Positions 2,184-41,866 of a DNA stretch of 64,000 nucleotides are shown piece by piece; the stretch's first letter is position 1; every line of letters starts with the position of its first letter. Origin of the DNA: Acidimicrobiia bacterium (GTDB lineage: Bacteria > Actinomycetota > Acidimicrobiia > Acidimicrobiales > Poriferisodalaceae); assembly GCA_022821985.1 (NCBI GenBank), contig JAJECP010000008.1, forward strand, positions 1-64,000. The letters run 5' to 3'. Made by a program: the position numbers and the translations under genes. A model generated the notes under the pieces. The model made no database searches, had not been told where the DNA came from, and saw only the letters and a program-made list of their open reading frames with translations.

Positions 2184-3103
2184 ACCCGAGGATCATTCTC
2201 GATTGCGATCCGGGCCACGACGATGCGGTGGCGATCCTGCTGGCGGCCCGCCAGTGCGAGGTGCTGGCGATCACGACGGTGTCGGGGAACGCACCGCTCG
2301 AGATGACCACGGCGAACGCGCTGCTGATGTGCGAGCTTGCCGGGCTGGACATTCCGGTGCATGCGGGCGCGGACCGGCCGCTGCTGGTACCTGCGGCCCA
2401 CGCCCCTCGTGCCCACGGGGCGACCGGGCTCGACGGGCCACCGCGGCCCGATGTGCACTTGGCGGCAGCAAGCAATGACGCCGTCGGCGTCATCATCGAG
2501 ACGGTGCGAGCCCACGACGACGTGTGGCTCGTGCCTGTCGGGCCGCTCACCAACATTGCGCTGGCCATCCGCCAAGCGCCGGACATCGTCGAGCGGGTGG
2601 CGGGCATCTCGCTCATGGGCGGCGCGGTCGGGCCGGGCAATGTCACGCCGACGGCCGAGTTCAACATCTGGGCAGATCCCCATGCCGCCCAGATCGTGTT
2701 CGCCGCCGGTGTGCCGCTGGTTCGCATGGCCGGGCTCAACCTCACCCACCAGCTCTGCGTCGGGCAGAACGAGATCATCGCCCTGCGGGAGCAGGGCGGC
2801 ATGGTGCCTGAGTTCGTGGCGGACCTGTTCGACTTCTACCTCGCCGGCTACCGCGAGCGCGCCGGGCTGGATGCCGCGCCCATGCACGACCCCTGCGCAG
2901 TGTTGGCCGTGACGCACCCAGAGCTGTTCACCTTCGGCGCCCGACACGTCGACGTGGAGACGAGCGGCGATCTCACCCGGGGCATGACCGTCGCCGACGA
3001 ACGGCCCGGCACCGACGCCACGCCCAACTGCGAGGTCGCCTACAGCATTGATGCCGCGCCGGCGCTCGAACTCATCGTCAACGCCGTCTGCAGCTACGGC
3101 TGA
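2180..3103 (+). CDS. Inosine-uridine type nucleoside hydrolase
   Basis: A 307-residue enzyme expected to split the N-glycosidic bond of ribonucleosides to give ribose and a free base (nucleoside salvage). The N-terminal motif DCDPGHDDA (residues 8-16) is the family's Ca2+/ribose-binding signature, and the C-terminal MHDPCAVLA carries the second conserved His-Asp. The GTG at 2180 is preferred over upstream starts because it overlaps the preceding stop and puts the DxDPG motif at the usual distance from the N-terminus. The next gene begins inside this stop codon (TGATG), so the three form one transcription unit. Substrate preference cannot be read from the sequence. Confidence 0.9.
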   Translation: MNPRIILDCDPGHDDAVAILLAARQCEVLAITTVSGNAPLEMTTANALLMCELAGLDIPVHAGADRPLLVPAAHAPRAHGATGLDGPPRPDVHLAAASNDAVGVIIETVRAHDDVWLVPVGPLTNIALAIRQAPDIVERVAGISLMGGAVGPGNVTPTAEFNIWADPHAAQIVFAAGVPLVRMAGLNLTHQLCVGQNEIIALREQGGMVPEFVADLFDFYLAGYRERAGLDAAPMHDPCAVLAVTHPELFTFGARHVDVETSGDLTRGMTVADERPGTDATPNCEVAYSIDAAPALELIVNAVCSYG

Positions 3104-4239
3104 TGCGCCGCGCAGCGACCCTGATTGTCCTGGCACTGGCGACAGCCATCGCCGCCGCGTCCTGCGGCAGTGACGATCTCGAAGCGCGAGACCTGACGCT
3201 GCCCGAGGCGGTGGGCCAGATGCTGCTGTTCGGCTTTCCCGGCACCGAGGTGGAACCCGCGGTGGCCGAGCTGCTGGATGAGGTTCGCCCCGGCGGGCTG
3301 ATCCTGTACGACTACGACGTGCGCAGCGGCGGCACGCAGCCGCGCAACATCGTCTCGCCTGCTCAGCTCGAGGCCCTCACGGCAAGCCTGCAAGAGCACA
3401 GCGAGATCCCGCTGCTGATCGCTGTAGATGCCGAGGGCGGGCTGGTCAATCGGCTCAAGCAGAAGTACGGCTTCACAGTCGTGGTGCCGTCGGCGGCCGA
3501 CATGGGCGCCGGCGACCCGGAAAGCACATCGGAGATCGCTACGGCGCTGGCCGAACAGCTTCGCTCGGTGGGCATCAACTGGAATCTGGCGCCGGTTGTG
3601 GATGTCGATGTGAACCCCGACAGCCCGGCGATCGGCGCGCTGGGGCGGGCGTTCAGCGCCGATCCCGCGCAGGTGGTCGAGCACGCCAGCGCCTTCTCGG
3701 ATGCGCACCTCGACCACGACGTGGTGCCGACGCTCAAGCACTTCCCCGGCCACGGCAGTGCGGTCGGCGACACGCACCTGGGCGTCACCGACGTAACCGA
3801 CAGCTTCGTGAGCGATGTCGAGCTCGCTCCCTACCAGATGCTGTTCGAGCAGGGCTACGCCGGTGCGGTCATGACCAACCATGTCGTCAACCGGCGACTG
3901 GACCCCGCTGCGCTTCCCGCCACGCTGTCAGCAGCCATCGTCACCGATCTCCTGCGCAACGATCTCGGCTACGACGGCGTGGTGATCTCCGACGACATGG
4001 GCATGGGCGCCATCGTCGAGCAGTTCACCCTGGAGCAAGCGGCGGTGCGTGCCGTCAATGCGGGCGTGGACGTCGTGCTGATCGCCAACCAGACCCACGA
4101 CGACGAGGCCGACAACGTCCGTCGCGTGCGCGAGGCGATCCTCGCCGCTGTGGAATCGGGCGAGATCCCCGAGGAGCGCATCTACGAATCGGTCCAGCGG
4201 ATCCTCGCGCTGAAACAGCAGTACGGCCTGCTGGACTGA
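3103..4239 (+). CDS. Glycoside hydrolase family 3 lipoprotein (NagZ-like beta-N-acetylhexosaminidase)
   Basis: A 378-residue GH3 enzyme. An N-terminal hydrophobic segment ends in AAASC, a lipobox, predicting export and attachment to the outer face of the membrane. The core shows DAEGG (about residue 109), KHFPGHG, the expected substrate and catalytic-loop motif of the NagZ branch, and ISDDMGMGAI with the nucleophile Asp region. It probably removes N-acetylglucosamine from muropeptides or other glycans during wall turnover. The start overlaps the stop of the nucleoside hydrolase gene. Length matches single-domain GH3 N-acetylglucosaminidases. The glycan substrate is inferred from the family. 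Confidence 0.88.
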   Translation: MRRAATLIVLALATAIAAASCGSDDLEARDLTLPEAVGQMLLFGFPGTEVEPAVAELLDEVRPGGLILYDYDVRSGGTQPRNIVSPAQLEALTASLQEHSEIPLLIAVDAEGGLVNRLKQKYGFTVVVPSAADMGAGDPESTSEIATALAEQLRSVGINWNLAPVVDVDVNPDSPAIGALGRAFSADPAQVVEHASAFSDAHLDHDVVPTLKHFPGHGSAVGDTHLGVTDVTDSFVSDVELAPYQMLFEQGYAGAVMTNHVVNRRLDPAALPATLSAAIVTDLLRNDLGYDGVVISDDMGMGAIVEQFTLEQAAVRAVNAGVDVVLIANQTHDDEADNVRRVREAILAAVESGEIPEERIYESVQRILALKQQYGLLD

Positions 4240-4303
4240 GCCGCGCGTGCCGAGGACGGGCTCACCGCGCCGCGCCGCCCGCGCACAGGCCGGACCGTCG
4301 GGG

Positions 4304-4347: not shown

Positions 4348-5493
4348 GTGACCTCCGAGGACGCACGCTCGCGCGGCGAATCGACACCGGCGTTCCGGCT
4401 GAGCCAGTACAGCCACGGTGCGGGCTGAGCGTGCAAGCTCGGGCCTTCCGAGCTGGCGCAGGTTCTGCGCCATCTGACTCCCCCGTCGCACCCGGACCTG
4501 GTGGTCGGCACCGACACCAGCGACGATGCCGCCGTGTGGCGGCTCGACGGCGACCGGCTGCTGGTGAATTCGACCGACTTCTTCGCGCCGATCGTGGACG
4601 ATGCGCGCACGTGGGGGCGCATCGCGGCGGCGAATGCCGCCAGCGACATCTACGCGATGGGCGCGAGCCCGCTGTTCGCCCTCAACCTGGCGGCCTGGCC
4701 GCGCGACGCGCTCCCGCTGGACTTGCTGGGCGAGGTGCTCGCCGGCGGTGCGGATGCCGCGGCGGACGGCGGCTGGGTGGTGGCCGGCGGTCACACCATC
4801 GACGCGCCCGAGCCGCTCTATGGCATGTCGGTGACTGGCACCTGCCGGCCGGCCAGCGACGGCACGGGCCTGCTCACCAACGCCGGTGGGCAGGCGGGCC
4901 AGGCGCTGGTGCTGACCAAACCGCTCGGCACCGGTCTGCTCGCGACCGCGCTGAAGCGTTCGGGCCCCGAGGCCGTCGAGTCGGGCGGCGACCTGCATGC
5001 GGCCTACGAGGCCGGCGTGGCCGAGATGTGCCGGCTCAACGACGCAGCCGCCGCCGCGGCCATCAGGGCAGGAGCCACGGCGGCCACCGACGTCACCGGG
5101 TTCGGACTGCTGGGACACCTCGCAGAACTCGCCGCGGCCAGCGAAGCGAGTGCCGTGGTGGATGCCGGCGCAGTGCCGCTGCTGCCCGATGTGGTCGGGC
5201 TCGCCACCGGCGGCTTCGTGCCCGGGGGCACCGGCCGCAACCTGGATCACCTGGCCGAGCGCCTCGACGGCAGCGACGAACTCACCCGCATCGTGCTCGG
5301 CGATCCGCAGACTTCGGGCGGCCTGCTGTTCAGCTGCAATCCCGCACGTGCCGGCGACGCTGTGCGCGAGCTGCGCGACAGCGGCCATGACGCCGCAGTG
5401 ATCGGCGAACTCGCCGACGGCAGCAGCGGCACGGCGGGATCGATCACGATCGCGGGCGCCGTCACCGGAGACACCGCAGCAGACGCAGGCTGA
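4348..5493 (+). CDS. selD: Selenide, water dikinase SelD containing selenocysteine (in-frame UGA at 4426-4428)
   Basis: Makes selenophosphate, the selenium donor for selenocysteine-tRNA, from selenide and ATP. Read from GTG 4348 through the TGA at 4426-4428, the product has 381 residues. It starts with the SelD motif RLSQYSHGAG-U-ACK, where U27 sits exactly at the catalytic Cys (Cys17 of E. coli SelD) and K30 at the essential Lys (Lys20). Downstream are DDAAVW, STDFF, GGHTIDAPEP, TDVTGFGLLGHL and DPQTSGGLL. Starting at 4501 instead would remove the whole active-site segment. The start is supported by a TACCGT box 6 nt upstream. A hairpin immediately after the UGA is a SECIS candidate. The next gene starts 4 nt after the stop. 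Sec-type SelD proteins are known in other bacteria. Confidence 0.93.
4429..4459 (+). promoter_or_regulatory. SECIS-like hairpin after the selD UGA
   Basis: AGCTCGG (4436-4442) pairs perfectly with CCGAGCT (4448-4454) around the 5-nt loop GCCTT, whose first base is G. The loop starts 15 nt after the UGA. Outer bases GCG(T) at 4429-4432 can pair with (G)CGC at 4456-4459. Position, stem and a G at the start of the loop agree with bacterial SECIS elements, which are recognised by SelB. Confidence 0.6.
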
Positions 5494-35268: not shown

Positions 35269-36255
35269 ATGGCTGAAGTCGATGTCGCTGATCTCGCCGC
35301 CGGCGTGCGCGCCTGCGATCGTGCGGCCATCGGTCAGGCGATCACACTGGTCGAGTCTCAGCGCCCTGCCGACGCAGCGCCCGCGCAAGCCCTTCTGGGA
35401 GAACTGCTGCCGCACACCGGCGGTGCGCATCGAGTGGGCATCACCGGCGTTCCCGGAGTGGGCAAGAGCACCCTCATCGAGACGCTCGGCACTGCGCTGA
35501 CGAAGCAGGGTCACCGTGTCGCCGTGCTGGCAGTCGACCCCACCTCAGCGCTGCACGGCGGCTCCATCCTGGGCGACAAGACCCGGATGACGGCGCTGGC
35601 CAACGACGCGGCGGCGTTCGTGCGCCCATCGCCGACCGCCGGGCAGCTCGGCGGGGTGACGCGGGTGACCCGCGAGACGATCCTGGTGCTGGAAGCGGCG
35701 GGGTTTGACGTGGTGCTGGTCGAGACCGTGGGCGTCGGCCAGTCAGAGACCGCCGTGGCCGACATGGTGGATTTCTTCGTGGTGCTGATGCTGCCAGGTG
35801 CCGGCGACGACCTGCAGGGCATCAAGAAGGGCATCCTCGAGATAGCGGACTTGATCGCCGTCAACAAGGCCGATGGCGACAACGTCGAGCGGGCCGGCAA
35901 TGCGGCTCGCGACTACCAGCTCGCGCTGCACATGACCCAGCCGGCCTCGCCGACGTGGTCTCCCCCGGTGATCACCTGCTCCGGCCTGACCGCAGACGGC
36001 CTCGACGAGCTGTGGCGCCACGTGACCGAGCACCGCCGGCTCATGTCGGCATCGGGCGAGCTGGCAGCCCGCCGGGCGGACCAGCGGGTGCGCTGGATGC
36101 GCTCGATGCTCGCCGAGCGCATGCGCGCACGTGTGGCAACGCGCGCCCAGGATCTGCTCGCCGAGCTCGAAGACGAGGTGCGATCCGACCGGCTGACGCC
36201 GACCGCTGCCGTCGACCGCCTGATGGCAGCCTTCGACGGGTCGACAGACGCCTAG
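35269..36255 (+). CDS. meaB: Methylmalonyl-CoA mutase-associated GTPase MeaB
   Basis: A 328-residue G3E-family GTPase that loads adenosylcobalamin onto the mutase and protects it. The Walker A loop is GVPGVGKS (residues 60-68); VDPTSALHGGSILGDKTRM, VETVGVGQSE and NKADGDN are the further G motifs, and the C-terminal arm mediates dimerisation. Its substrate enzyme MutAB is encoded just upstream. The stop lies 29 nt from the stop of convergent nrdB, inside a short duplicated sequence. Confidence 0.95.
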   Translation: MAEVDVADLAAGVRACDRAAIGQAITLVESQRPADAAPAQALLGELLPHTGGAHRVGITGVPGVGKSTLIETLGTALTKQGHRVAVLAVDPTSALHGGSILGDKTRMTALANDAAAFVRPSPTAGQLGGVTRVTRETILVLEAAGFDVVLVETVGVGQSETAVADMVDFFVVLMLPGAGDDLQGIKKGILEIADLIAVNKADGDNVERAGNAARDYQLALHMTQPASPTWSPPVITCSGLTADGLDELWRHVTEHRRLMSASGELAARRADQRVRWMRSMLAERMRARVATRAQDLLAELEDEVRSDRLTPTAAVDRLMAAFDGSTDA

Positions 36256-36257
36256 CG

Positions 36258-36315
36258 AGAAGTCCTCGTCGAAGGCGACCTCGCCTAGAAGTCCTCGTCG
36301 AAGGCGACCTGGCCT
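36258..36315. repeat. 29-bp tandem duplication over the nrdB stop codon
   Basis: 36258-36286 and 36287-36315 are identical in 28 of 29 positions (36282 versus 36311 differs). The second copy encodes the last residues of NrdB and its stop; the first is an out-of-gene copy filling the whole gap to meaB. Confidence 0.9.
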
Positions 36316-37397
36316 TCGATGCCGACCTGGTAGGCGGCGACGGTGCGCTCGAAGAAGTTGGTGAGCTCCTGCACGTCCTGCAGTTCCATGAACGAGAAGG
36401 GGTTCTTGGAGCCGAAGTTCTTCGGCAGCCCGAGCTGAGCCAAACGCTGATCGGCCACGAACTCCAAGTAGGACCGGGTGTCGGCAACCGACATGCCCGC
36501 CACGCCGCCTGACAGCACGTCACGCGCGAACTGCGTCTCGACGTCGACCGCCTCGACGATCATCTCGCGGATCCGATCGGCGAGATCCTGGTCGAACAGG
36601 TCGGGTTCCTCGGAACGGATCGTGCGCACCACCTCGAACGCGAAGTTCATGTGCGCCGACTCGTCACGGAACACCCAGTTCGTGCCGGCCGCCAAGCCGT
36701 TCAGCAGGCCCTTCGATCGCAGGAAATAGACGTAGGCGAACGCCGCGAAGAAGAACAGACCCTCGATGCACGCAGCGAAGCAGATGAGATTCAGCAGGAA
36801 GGCCTTGCGGTGCTCGACGGTGGAGAGCTGGTCGAGCGACCACACGCTGTCCATCCAGCGGAAACAGAAGTCGGCCTTGGCGGCAATGGAGGGAATGTTC
36901 TCGATGGCCGAGAACGCCGCCGCTCGCTCATCGAGATCAGGGATGTAGTGATCCAGCAGCGTCAGGTAGAACTGCACGTGCAGCGCTTCCTCGTACAGCT
37001 GCCGGCTCAGGTACATGCGAGCTTCGGGGCTGTTGATGTGCTGGTAGAGGTTCAGCACCAGGTTGTTGGCGACGATCGAGTCGCCGGTGGCGAAGAACGC
37101 CACGAGCCGGTTGATGAGGTGCCGCTCGGCAGGCGCCAGCTTGCGGTTGAGGTCGACGATGTCGTCGGAGAAATCGATCTCCTCGACCGTCCACGTGTTG
37201 CGGATGGCGTCGCGGTACATGTCGAAGAACTGCGGGTACCGCATCGGGCGCAGTGTCAGCTCGAAGCCAGGGTCCAGGATGTTGCCGCTGCGGGCAGCAG
37301 CACCGGCGCCCGCGCTGGTCTGCGACTCGCCGTCCGCAAGCGGCTCGGCTGGAAGGGATTGGGGCACCAATTCGGGCGCTGGTTGCACGAGTGCCAT
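36285..37397 (-). CDS. nrdB: Ribonucleotide-diphosphate reductase beta subunit
   Basis: The 370-residue diiron R2 subunit that holds the radical for deoxyribonucleotide synthesis. Metal ligands are recognisable in TGDSIVANN (Asp), YEEALHVQFY (Glu and His), CIEGLFFF and FRDESAHMNF. A Tyr lies four residues after the first ligand His, the position of the radical Tyr122 of E. coli, so it is a tyrosyl-radical rather than a chlamydial-type R2. The C-terminal tail VAFDEDF would dock to NrdA. AGAGGA precedes ATG 37397; nrdA lies 50 nt upstream in the same operon. Confidence 0.95.
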   Translation of the reverse strand: MALVQPAPELVPQSLPAEPLADGESQTSAGAGAAARSGNILDPGFELTLRPMRYPQFFDMYRDAIRNTWTVEEIDFSDDIVDLNRKLAPAERHLINRLVAFFATGDSIVANNLVLNLYQHINSPEARMYLSRQLYEEALHVQFYLTLLDHYIPDLDERAAAFSAIENIPSIAAKADFCFRWMDSVWSLDQLSTVEHRKAFLLNLICFAACIEGLFFFAAFAYVYFLRSKGLLNGLAAGTNWVFRDESAHMNFAFEVVRTIRSEEPDLFDQDLADRIREMIVEAVDVETQFARDVLSGGVAGMSVADTRSYLEFVADQRLAQLGLPKNFGSKNPFSFMELQDVQELTNFFERTVAAYQVGIEGQVAFDEDF

Positions 37398-37447
37398 GGG
37401 GATCCTCTGTCTGTGTCAGGTGGGTCGGCCGGCGAGCCCGCGACGGC

Positions 37448-39949
37448 TCATTCGCAGGCTTCGCAGGTTTCGGGGTTCTCCAGCGAGCACGCCACGGCCT
37501 CGGCGGCTGCTGCGTCGGCGGCTGTGTCGATGACCGCGGCAGCCGAGCCCGCCGCGGCTGGGTCGGGCATGGTCGAGACAGTTGCGTGCGTTGCAGTGCC
37601 GCCGTTGGGCCGACCGCCATTGCTGCCCGATGCGCTGTCGGTCGTGGTCTGGTTGATGCGCGTAGCCGGACGGGAGCGCAGGTAGTAGGTGGTCTTCAGG
37701 CCTGATTTCCAGGCGTGCATGTACATGGAGGAGAGCTTCCCGATGTTGGGGCTCTCCATGAACAGGTTGAGCGATTGGCTCTGGTCGATGAAGGCGCCTC
37801 GTGCGGCGGCCATGTCGATGAGCGCCCGCTGGGGCAGCTCCCACGCAGTGCGATACACCGAGCGGAGGTCATCGGGAATCTCGGCGATGGCCTGCACCGA
37901 ACCCTCGGCCATCTTGATCTTGTTGGCCATGGCCTCGCTCCACAGGCCACGCTGTTGCAGTTCGCGTACCAGATAGCGATTGATCTGCATGAACTCGCCC
38001 GACAGCGTTTCTCGCTTGAACAGGTTCGACACCTGCGGCTCGATGCACTCGTAGCAGCCAGCGATGGACGCGATGGTGGCGGTAGGCGCAACTGCCACCA
38101 GCAGCGAATTGCGCAGCCCGTGCTGGCCGATCCGCTCGCGCAGCTCGGCCCAGCGCTGGGGTTGCGACGACTCGATGCCCCAGAGGTCGAACTGCAGCTC
38201 TCCCGCAGCGGCTCGCGTCTCGCCGAACGCCCCGTGCGGCCCGTGCTTACGAGCCAGCTCGCAGCTCGACCAAACCGCCCAGTAGTAGATCTCCTCGGCG
38301 ATCCGGGCCGCAATCTCGGCCGCCTCAGGCGAGTCGAACGCCAGCTTGAGCTGGAAGAACACGTCCTGCAGGCCCATGACGCCGAGCCCCACCGGACGCC
38401 AGCGCTCGTTCGATCGGGCGGCCTCGGGCGTCGGGTAGTAGTTGATGTCGATGACGCGGTCCAGGTAGGGCACCGCGGTGCGCACAACCTCTCCCAGCGC
38501 GTCGTAGTCGACGGTTCTGCCGTCTGGGCCCTCCCGCACGAACTTGGCGAGATTGACCGAGCCGAGGTTGCAGACCGCCGTCTCAGCGTCGCTGGTGACC
38601 TCGAGGATCTCAGTGCACAGGTTCGACAGGTGGATGACGTTGCCGGGCTCGCCGGTCTGGTTGGACTTGGCGTTCGAAGCGTCCTTGAAAGTCATCCAGC
38701 CGTTGCCGGTCTGGGCGAGCGTGCGCATCATGCGGCTGTAGAGGTCGCGGGCCGACACCTGCCGCTCGTACAAGCCCGCTGCTTCGGCTTCCCGGTACGC
38801 ATCGGTGAACTCGTCGCCGTACAGGTCGGTGAGATGCGGCACCTGCTTGGGGTCGAACAGCGACCACTGCCAGTCGTTCTCGACCCGGCGCATGAACTCG
38901 TCGGGCACCCAGTTCGCCAGGTTCAGATTGTGGGTGCGCCGAGCATGGTCGCCGGTGGAATCCTTCAGCTCCAGGAACTCCTCGATGTCGGCGTGCCACG
39001 ACTCGAGATACACGCATGCAGCGCCCTTGCGCCGGCCGCCCTGGTTCACCGCCGCAACCGACGAGTCAAGCGTCTTGAGCCACGGCACGATGCCGTTCGA
39101 CAGGCCATTGGTGCCGCTGATCAGCGAGCCACGCGACCGCACCCGGTGCCAGCCCACCCCGATGCCGCCGGCGAACTTCGACAGCTTGGCGATGTCGGAA
39201 TAGCGGTCGTAGATGCCTTCGAGCGAATCGGTGGGGCTGTCGAGCAGGTAGCACGACGACATCTGCGGATGGGCCGTGCCCGAGTTGAACAGCGTAGGCG
39301 ACGACGGCAAGTAGCGCAGGCTGGAGATGAGCTCGTAGAACGCGACGGCCTCTTCGGCCGTCTGCGACAGGCCGCAGGCAACCCGCAGCAAGAAGTACTG
39401 CGGGTTCTCGATGACCGAGCGGCGCTGCGGGTGCCGCAGCAGGTAGCGGTCGTACACGGTGCGGAGGCCGAAGAACTCGAAATCGCCGTTGCGCTGCGCT
39501 ATGACCGCATCGTTGAGCTTGCGAGCGTTTGCGGCAACGAAGGCCACCACATCGGGATGGATGAGCCCGCACTCGCCGCCTTCGGAGATGGACTGGCTGA
39601 ACGAGTAGATGTTCTGGTTCTGGACTTCCTTGTCGATGTAGGTGGCCAGCAAGCGGGCAGCCAGCTTCGAGTAGTTCGGCTCCTCAGAGATCAGCGCCGC
39701 GGCCGTGCGAATCGACAGCTCGTCGAGCTCGGTGGTGGTGGCGCCGTCATGAAGACCCGAGATTGTCCGCGTCGCCACCCGCATGGGATCGACGCCGGCC
39801 AGTTCGATGGCGCAGCGTTCGACGGCGCGGACGATCTTGTTGACATCGACGGCCTGCATGGAACCGTCGCGCTTCTGCACGCGCATGCCGGGCGAATCCG
39901 AGGACCGCTTCTGAACCGTCGCGGTAGGCGACTCCTCGGTGATGCTCAT
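37448..39949 (-). CDS. nrdA: Ribonucleoside-diphosphate reductase alpha subunit
   Basis: The 833-residue class I catalytic subunit. It has an N-terminal ATP-cone (MRVQKRDGSMQAVDVNKIVRAVE), which implies allosteric control by ATP/dATP, the active-site Cys stretch MSSCYLLDSPTDS, the NLCTEI finger-loop region (NLCTEILEVT), and a C-terminal CEACE Cys pair for re-reduction by thioredoxin or glutaredoxin-like donors. GGAGGGG lies about 9 nt before ATG 39949. It is the first gene of nrdA-nrdB. Confidence 0.96.
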   Translation of the reverse strand: MSITEESPTATVQKRSSDSPGMRVQKRDGSMQAVDVNKIVRAVERCAIELAGVDPMRVATRTISGLHDGATTTELDELSIRTAAALISEEPNYSKLAARLLATYIDKEVQNQNIYSFSQSISEGGECGLIHPDVVAFVAANARKLNDAVIAQRNGDFEFFGLRTVYDRYLLRHPQRRSVIENPQYFLLRVACGLSQTAEEAVAFYELISSLRYLPSSPTLFNSGTAHPQMSSCYLLDSPTDSLEGIYDRYSDIAKLSKFAGGIGVGWHRVRSRGSLISGTNGLSNGIVPWLKTLDSSVAAVNQGGRRKGAACVYLESWHADIEEFLELKDSTGDHARRTHNLNLANWVPDEFMRRVENDWQWSLFDPKQVPHLTDLYGDEFTDAYREAEAAGLYERQVSARDLYSRMMRTLAQTGNGWMTFKDASNAKSNQTGEPGNVIHLSNLCTEILEVTSDAETAVCNLGSVNLAKFVREGPDGRTVDYDALGEVVRTAVPYLDRVIDINYYPTPEAARSNERWRPVGLGVMGLQDVFFQLKLAFDSPEAAEIAARIAEEIYYWAVWSSCELARKHGPHGAFGETRAAAGELQFDLWGIESSQPQRWAELRERIGQHGLRNSLLVAVAPTATIASIAGCYECIEPQVSNLFKRETLSGEFMQINRYLVRELQQRGLWSEAMANKIKMAEGSVQAIAEIPDDLRSVYRTAWELPQRALIDMAAARGAFIDQSQSLNLFMESPNIGKLSSMYMHAWKSGLKTTYYLRSRPATRINQTTTDSASGSNGGRPNGGTATHATVSTMPDPAAAGSAAAVIDTAADAAAAEAVACSLENPETCEACE

Positions 39950-40221: not shown

Positions 40222-41481
40222 GTGTCGAACTCCCCGAAACGCATAGTCATCGTCGGCGCCTCCCTGGCGGGCGCGCGCGCAGTGCACAGCGTGCGCTCTG
40301 CAGGCCATGACGGGCCGTTGACGCTCATCGGTGCCGAACCCCATCTCCCCTACGATCGGCCCCCGCTGTCGAAGGAATTCCTGACTGGCGACAACGACCC
40401 CAGCTCGCTGGCACTCGACCCGGATGGCGCCTTTGACGACCTCGATGTGGAGGTCATGCTGAGCACCCACGCGGTGGGGCTCGACATGGCGGCTCGAACG
40501 GTCGCTGTCGCCCCGGCGGCCGGCGGCAGCGCGGAGACAGTGCCGTTCGACGGCCTCGTCATCGCGACGGGCGCAGCGGCTCGACCGCTGCCCGGCGTCG
40601 GGAACATGGCAGGCGTGCACACACTGCGGACCCTCGACGACTCGATGGCCATCCGGGAAGGTCTTATCGCCGGCGCACGAGTCGCCGTGGTGGGCGGCGG
40701 CTTCATCGGCTCGGAGGTCGCCGCTTCTGCTGCGGCCCGCGGCTGCGAGGTGACGGTGATCGAAGCGGCCCCGGCCCCGCTGGTGCGCGGGCTAGGTGCC
40801 GAGATGGGCACGCGGGTCGGCGCGCTGCACGGCCAGAACGGCGTCGAGCTGCGGCTGGGCATCGGCGTCGACGGCGTGCTGGGAGCCGACCGTGTCGAAG
40901 CGGTTGCCATGGCTGACGGCAGTCGCGTCCCCGCTGATCTCGTGGTCGTCGGCATCGGGGTCGTGCCCAACACGGAGTGGCTGGAAGGCTCAGGACTGGA
41001 GATCGACAACGGCGTGGTCTGTGATGAGACGCTGTGCTGCGGGCCGCAAGGCATCTATGCCGTGGGCGATGTTGCGCGCGCCGGCAATGGCTGGCTGGGG
41101 CCGCTGGGGGTTTCCGAGCCGGTTCGGGTCGAGCACTGGACGGCGGCAGTCGAGCATGGCATGGCCGTGGGACGCAACCTGGTCGCGCCTGCCGAAGCTC
41201 AGCCGTACAACTCAGTTCCCTTCGTGTGGTCCGACCAGTACGACGCCCGCATCCAGATTGCCGGACATCCCGACGCCGACGACGATGTTGAGGTGCTCGT
41301 CGGCTCGGCTGAAGATGACCCAGACTCAGGTCGCTCGTTCTTGGCCGGTTACCGGCGCAACGGCCGCCTGAGCGGGGTGATGGCGCTCGACGCGATCAGG
41401 CCATTCGTGCGATTCCGCCGCCTGCTGGCCAACCATCCGACGTGGGACGAGGCGCTGGAGCTCGCCGCAACCCTCGGTTGA
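40222..41481 (+). CDS. FAD-dependent ferredoxin reductase-type oxidoreductase
   Basis: A 419-residue flavoprotein of the NAD(P)H:ferredoxin/rubredoxin reductase group. The FAD motif IVIVGASLAGARAV, PYDRPPLSKEFL, the NAD motif VAVVGGGFIGSEVA, GIYAVGDVA and a C-terminal reductase domain (FVWSDQYDARIQIAG) match partners of Rieske oxygenases and cytochromes P450. It could feed electrons to the Rieske oxygenase at 17 kb, but no ferredoxin gene is adjacent. GTG 40222 has a CACACT box 6 nt upstream. It converges with the DUF427 gene. Confidence 0.88.
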   Translation: MSNSPKRIVIVGASLAGARAVHSVRSAGHDGPLTLIGAEPHLPYDRPPLSKEFLTGDNDPSSLALDPDGAFDDLDVEVMLSTHAVGLDMAARTVAVAPAAGGSAETVPFDGLVIATGAAARPLPGVGNMAGVHTLRTLDDSMAIREGLIAGARVAVVGGGFIGSEVAASAAARGCEVTVIEAAPAPLVRGLGAEMGTRVGALHGQNGVELRLGIGVDGVLGADRVEAVAMADGSRVPADLVVVGIGVVPNTEWLEGSGLEIDNGVVCDETLCCGPQGIYAVGDVARAGNGWLGPLGVSEPVRVEHWTAAVEHGMAVGRNLVAPAEAQPYNSVPFVWSDQYDARIQIAGHPDADDDVEVLVGSAEDDPDSGRSFLAGYRRNGRLSGVMALDAIRPFVRFRRLLANHPTWDEALELAATLG

Positions 41482-41494
41482 TCGGCTCCGCCGC

Positions 41495-41866
41495 TTAGTT
41501 GACGGTTTGGTCCACCTCGTCACGCTCGGCGTAGAAGCTCATCAGACCGGCGATCTCCGCCATCTCGGGGATCGGATCGGGGTAGGACCACACGACGTCG
41601 TCGTAGCTCTGACCGTTGACTGCTACTGACCAGTAGCTGGCATCGCCCTTCCACGGTCAATGAGTGGACAGCACAGTCGGGTGCAGCAACTCCATCTCGA
41701 CGTCTGAAACCGGCAGGTAGTGGCGCGGTGGGAGCCGTCCTTCGGTCAGCACCAGGGCCGAGGTCGAATCGGCCACGACCACGCCGTCAACCCGGACGAT
41801 GACCCGCCCTGGCTCCTGCACGACCGAAATCTCGGGCTTGCGATGTTCAGTTGCCGTGTCGCTCAT
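41495..41866 (-). CDS. DUF427-family protein containing selenocysteine (in-frame UGA at 41657-41659)
   Basis: Read through TGA (41657-41659) this is a complete 123-residue DUF427 protein. The part before the stop ends ...MELLHPTVLSTH; then comes U70 and, in the same frame, PWKGDASYWSVAV, VWSYPDPIPEMAEIAG and TAA. In DUF427 proteins the position before P-[WFY]-K-G is a conserved Cys, so the UGA stands exactly at that Cys. The uninterrupted conserved frame after the UGA argues against a decaying pseudogene. GGGGAG lies about 6 nt before ATG 41866. A SECIS-like hairpin with GGUC loop follows the UGA. The biochemical role of DUF427 is unknown; a selenol at its conserved Cys suggests redox or nucleophilic chemistry (inference). 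It converges with a flavoprotein gene. Confidence 0.85.
41613..41656 (-). promoter_or_regulatory. SECIS-like element of the DUF427 gene
   Basis: On the minus strand GCTACT (41637-41632) pairs with AGTAGC (41627-41622) around the tetraloop GGTC. The first loop G is 26 nt after the UGA. An outer stem CCGT (directly after the UGA) with ACGG closes the structure. A GGUC apical loop is also present in the E. coli fdhF SECIS, where G and U contact SelB. Confidence 0.75.

Follow-up and report, generated by a model that had tools for sequence, protein, structure and literature searches.

Among the closest described systems, SelD is a selenoprotein family that has been verified by experiment and is listed in Table 1 of PMC13188914, and DUF166, DUF523, DUF1573, DUF1858 and DUF3179 are selenoproteins predicted from pairs of Cys and UGA forms together with SECIS elements (PMC13188914). 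The prediction made here, for a protein of DUF427 (PF04248), follows the same logic as those predictions, although the families are different. The beta-tent proteins (MsrB, Mis18/Yippee and cereblon CULT) have no significant sequence similarity to DUF427, which is without a zinc site, and among MsrB homologues the zinc site has occasionally been lost (PMC4287342). The DUF427 protein studied here has no Cys with which to form such a site. For COG2343, which we take to be DUF427, none of the papers listed for it together with selenium names it, and for NTP_transf_9 no paper was found in the literature searchable in full text. A table from 2026 covering 119 families and subfamilies of prokaryotic selenoproteins lacks DUF427/PF04248, and the main text of the same paper mentions PF04248 and COG2343 nowhere (PMC13188914). 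The matching passages of PMC5897793 describe no DUF427 selenoprotein (the matching string was DUF4277), and the same is true of the matching passages of PMC4287342 (where ‘selenoprotein’ occurs only within a reference title), PMC9312934, PMC12013277, PMC2398784 and PMC5029168. An earlier, sequence-only reading of this DNA had proposed a possible new selenoprotein family, and within the literature searched (supplements, preprints and most subscription papers lie outside it), as in the 119-family table, that proposal holds.

The window, by which we mean the whole stretch of 64,000 nucleotides analysed, from an Acidimicrobiia bacterium, carries the following putative gene:

41495 to 41866, minus strand: putative selenoprotein gene of the DUF427 family (PF04248), encoding 123 residues with Sec as the 70th, terminated by TAA
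41657 to 41659, minus strand: TGA codon, presumed to encode Sec, at the Cys column preceding PWKG; TGA in 10 of 10 distinct sequences of the genus

On the minus strand the frame runs from an ATG at 41866 to the TGA at 41659-41657, and continues for 53 more codons to a TAA at 41497-41495. In a search of the genome the PF04248 match crosses the TGA (115.3 bits, one TGA inside), and with C written for U the protein reaches 121.3 bits where the cut-off is 22.1; assignment to DUF427 rests on this score above the curated cut-off and on the shared fold (see below). It is the single DUF427 match in the 41 contigs of this genome, and no NCBIfam model matched the protein at E 0.001. Coordinates and PF04248 match agree with what had been claimed from the letters alone, namely a frame that carries the second half of a DUF427 domain for 53 residues past the TGA to a TAA. 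Because a plain open reading frame listing shows no more than the N-terminal half of the protein, such genes are easily overlooked.

The internal TGA is a shared character of one genus. DUF427 was matched in 33 of the 39 genomes of the family that were searched: in 10 of the 11 genomes of the same genus, with one TGA in each, and in 23 genomes of other genera, none of which has the TGA. The eleventh same-genus genome gave no match in the family search or in a search by DNA, so that the gene is absent or unassembled there. Removal of duplicates left 10 distinct gene sequences for comparison within the genus, six of which were also met as MAG contigs assigned to Acidimicrobiia, Acidimicrobiales or Acidimicrobiaceae (L048-L053). 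Codon 70 is TGA in all 10, at protein identities of 75-96%, and the frame is intact throughout, ending at residue 123 in nine and at residue 156 in one; none of the 10 proteins contains a cysteine. Seven of the 10 genes also terminate at TGA: UGA serves these same genes as a stop, and its internal reading is therefore site-specific. The sequence-only reading had staked itself on relatives with something other than TGC or TGT and on a frame free of additional disabling changes: its same-genus relatives have TGA, and no such change was seen in the frame. The search for TGA at the same column in homologues, which it had also proposed, returned nine other genomes of the genus and one candidate from Candidatus Tectomicrobia (discussed below); confirmed TGA forms are limited to one genus.

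Beyond the genus, the column of the TGA is a cysteine column. In nine sister rows, from other genera of the family, the codon is TGC or TGT, which bears out the claim that the UGA coincides with the conserved Cys before P-[WFY]-K-G. Over 90 domain stretches, an unfiltered count, the column holds 52 C, 19 S, 8 U and 3 other residues and is unreadable in 8; the tree (64 stretches) and the alignment (46) took as input only stretches that are longer than 90 residues and contain a [CU]-x-[WFYLH]-K-G motif, so that the invariance of the Cys in the alignment is partly due to the selection of rows. Most of the S rows represent a degenerate domain with SPSRG. Many two-domain DUF427 proteins (L019, L021-L027 and others) pair SPSRG in the first domain with CPYKG in the second, as if one copy had lost its reactive residue.

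In the tree, all 10 Sec proteins fall into a single clade (100/100), which is joined at 97/91 to the nine Cys proteins that belong to other genera within the family; the tree has few columns, many unresolved forks, a bootstrap that had not settled and a midpoint root. Eight of these nine sister proteins were included in the alignment, where they share 48-58% identity with the window protein. Given that the Sec clade is joined to Cys-bearing sister rows, Sec would have replaced Cys in the genus, most likely by a Cys-to-Sec change in its ancestor. A second position may have changed with it: the position preceding FY holds Cys in eight of the nine sister rows and in 26 of 53 Cys rows, and Ser in 10 of 10 Sec rows, and might have held a resolving Cys that was lost when Sec arrived.

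Selection on the gene extends past the TGA. Across the 10 distinct genes pN/pS is 0.231 for codons 2-69 and 0.186 for codons 71-123, a comparison of the two sides of the UGA that the sequence-only reading had called for; judged by these ratios, the frame past the TGA is under purifying selection and its second half appears to be translated. The longest stretches of the gene without any change, two of 17 and 23 nt, lie at the TGA and directly after it. Synonymous variation occurs in only 1 of 10 degenerate codons in codons 71-82, versus 76 of 105 in the rest of the gene (Fisher p 1.7e-4), a block that was picked after inspection of the data and that a scan returned as the least variable 12-codon segment of the gene. 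Within this region the rare codons TCA, GTA and GCA, which in eight genes of the genome account for 4.6% of Ser, 1.1% of Val and 11.5% of Ala codons, are unchanged in 10 of 10 genus genes, and together they occupy the loop of a predicted hairpin and its right arm:

41622 to 41637, minus strand: SECIS-like upper hairpin GCUACU-GGUC-AGUAGC, 6 bp with a GGUC loop, 25 nt between TGA and loop
41610 to 41659, minus strand: possible lower stem UGACCGU...ACGGUCA, 54-nt fold of -19.8 kcal/mol, z -2.39; not strictly conserved

The letters of the upper hairpin are invariant in 10 of 10 genus sequences, its fold being a prediction. We compared it with the bacterial SECIS model given in the legend of Fig. 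2 of PMC13188914, which it fits. On the minimum free energy fold the model is passed by 9 of the 10 genus sequences; in the tenth (L078) the hairpin is lost from the predicted fold though its letters are intact. The background is high: across seven genes of the window the SECIS criteria also accept 655 of 3187 codons, and they accept 13 of 53 Cys relatives; they are loose in a window of 68% GC and weak alone. Fold z-scores are modest (-2.39 for 54 nt, -0.66 for 48 nt and -1.06 for 79 nt), and L049, L069 and L078 are predicted to fold with the lower stem altered or missing. With a loose model and modest z-scores, we place the weight on sequence invariance and synonymous constraint rather than on the fold.

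The genome is equipped to insert Sec, and part of this equipment lies in the window itself:

4396 to 5349, plus strand: selD match (selenophosphate synthetase), TIGR00476 at 354.6 bits, with an in-frame TGA at 4426-4428 (GAGUACKLG)

This selD is both a component of the Sec machinery and a positive control for an in-frame TGA. It resembles the DUF427 gene in having an in-frame UGA and a downstream hairpin with a G-bearing loop in the same genome, and differs in the spacing between UGA and hairpin loop, 33 nt as against 25 in the DUF427 gene. Exactly one TGA is found in selD of all 11 genomes of the genus, its context having been examined in 3 of them. A plain open reading frame listing would miss the start of the window selD. 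A tRNA-Sec (66.3 bits, anticodon UCA) and selB (273.8 bits) share a contig, and a frame upstream of selB is, from its motifs, presumably SelA-like. The sequence-only reading had made its claim depend on Sec machinery, and with tRNA-Sec, SelB, a TGA-bearing SelD and this SelA-like frame that machinery is in place. Across the family, selB is above cut-off in 39 of 39 genomes and tRNA-Sec in at most 34, an upper bound because the model catches other tRNAs and at least one match is barely above the line. Near selA-selB, a minus-strand frame at about 35863-37521 of the same contig (G000:C16) has what we take to be [2Fe-2S] and xanthine-dehydrogenase-like motifs, and is possibly part of a molybdenum hydroxylase. 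In a sponge microbiome, most symbiont bins had co-occurring SelA and SelB (PMC5649159).

We place Sec at the conserved Cys because the TGA and frame are conserved, the hairpin is constrained, the machinery is present and the sister clade carries Cys; on this central point comparison of genomes (TGA in 10 of 10) supports what had been read from a single sequence. At a probability of roughly 94%, we consider that the gene encodes a selenoprotein in which tRNA-Sec and SelB would decode the UGA at codon 70 as Sec under the direction of the hairpin immediately downstream, with Sec replacing Cys. Very likely, then, a real and so far unlisted Sec-containing DUF427 variant exists in 10 of 11 genomes of one genus. 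The alternative that survives best, itself improbable, is that the UGA is read in some other way (as Trp or Cys, or through a near-cognate tRNA) or that a truncated form of 69 residues is the working protein. Our identification of residue 70 does come from sequence, and truncation could arise under selenium shortage, but general readthrough sits poorly with UGA as the terminal stop of 7 of the 10 same genes, in an organism that has tRNA-Sec, SelB and a TGA-bearing SelD, and at a site that falls on the Cys column of the sister rows; a Trp reading in particular is opposed by the lack of any Trp at this column in the 82 of 90 domain stretches of relatives that are readable, and a truncated form alone leaves the selection on the downstream half without explanation. 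Still less probable is a pseudogene or sequencing error, with the TGA a premature stop and the downstream half a relic: a lone stop inside the frame of a small protein without known function, from a family whose stop-free copies are common elsewhere, might suggest one, but the TGA and an intact frame recur in 10 of 10 distinct genus sequences, pN/pS stays at 0.186 past the TGA and the longest invariant runs (17 and 23 nt) lie at the TGA and just after it. Pseudogene and alternative-code readings were both rejected, on the conserved TGA and frame, pN/pS and the terminal TGA of those seven genes.

If residue 70 is Sec, its setting suggests a chemical role. The structure model (pLDDT 94.2) has as its best fold match 3djm, the solved DUF427/PF04248 (NTP_transf_9) structure from Rhodobacter sphaeroides; MsrB is absent among the fold matches listed, which has no bearing on whether a likeness is excluded. 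Where 3djm and the sister proteins have Cys, the genus proteins have UGA at that codon and a SECIS-like hairpin downstream. The protein would be one small beta-tent domain, with the selenol at a strand end, adjoining the Pro-Trp-Lys-Gly turn; as this single domain is without Cys, the selenol would be its most reactive nucleophile. We may fairly infer a redox or nucleophilic active site at the Sec position, and the most likely role is that of a redox or nucleophilic enzyme with one Sec, in which the selenol would attack the substrate and, since the chain has no resolving Cys, would be reset by an outside thiol or reductase. Sec is usually retained only where a very reactive nucleophile repays its cost, and for this reason Sec would mark the probable catalytic residue of DUF427, a family that Pfam lists as of unknown function. 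This shows biochemists which residue to mutate, with redox or nucleophilic chemistry the first to try, and adds to the prokaryotic selenoproteome a candidate family whose fold is not thioredoxin-like.

DUF427 relatives were found at no fewer than 17 loci, and DUF427-like matches at less than 60% identity occur in 143 plasmid records and 1 phage record; viral contigs gave no DUF427-like match. A TGA pattern search of 396 genomes of the phylum and 395 of the class (overlapping draws, both without other genomes of the same genus or family) returned the window's own genome only, as an earlier TGA pattern in 11 genomes had returned its own gene only; the pattern demands exact motif columns, so that diverged cases would be missed. 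Among the best matches listed for PF04248 in the 395 class genomes, a stop lies inside the window's own gene only. A possible second Sec case of DUF427 comes from Candidatus Tectomicrobia (L055; MGDP01000160.1), where a frame at 2560-3426 encodes two DUF427 domains in tandem, the first reading STHUPWKGDASYW with its TGA, at L055:2800, in the same column; the hairpin is poorer, and this is a single sequence whose placement in the tree is unsure. A downstream frame (3842-4240) we take, from its motifs, to be MsrB-like. No paper linking a selenoprotein with Tectomicrobia was found among those searchable in full text. It is a tentative idea, and we lean against it, that Sec was gained at least twice at the same DUF427 Cys, in the genus and in L055, which would make this a widespread Cys/Sec enzyme family; if so, the reactive residue of DUF427 would precede the PxKG turn of the beta-tent, in parallel to MsrB.

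The gene neighbourhood is also conserved within the genus, where the DUF427 gene faces a reductase-like gene:

40222 to 41481, plus strand: FAD/NAD(P) ferredoxin-reductase-like gene (Pyr_redox_2 and Reductase_C), convergent neighbour

The same ferredoxin-reductase-like neighbour also adjoins the DUF427 gene in the nine other distinct genus loci, and Der adjoins it in the 10 genus loci; these neighbours added little to what can be said about function. Around the Cys-type genes of the sister clade, a frame that we take from its motifs to be MBL-fold adjoins DUF427 in at least three of nine loci (L071, L072, L077), a possible link to sulfur chemistry.
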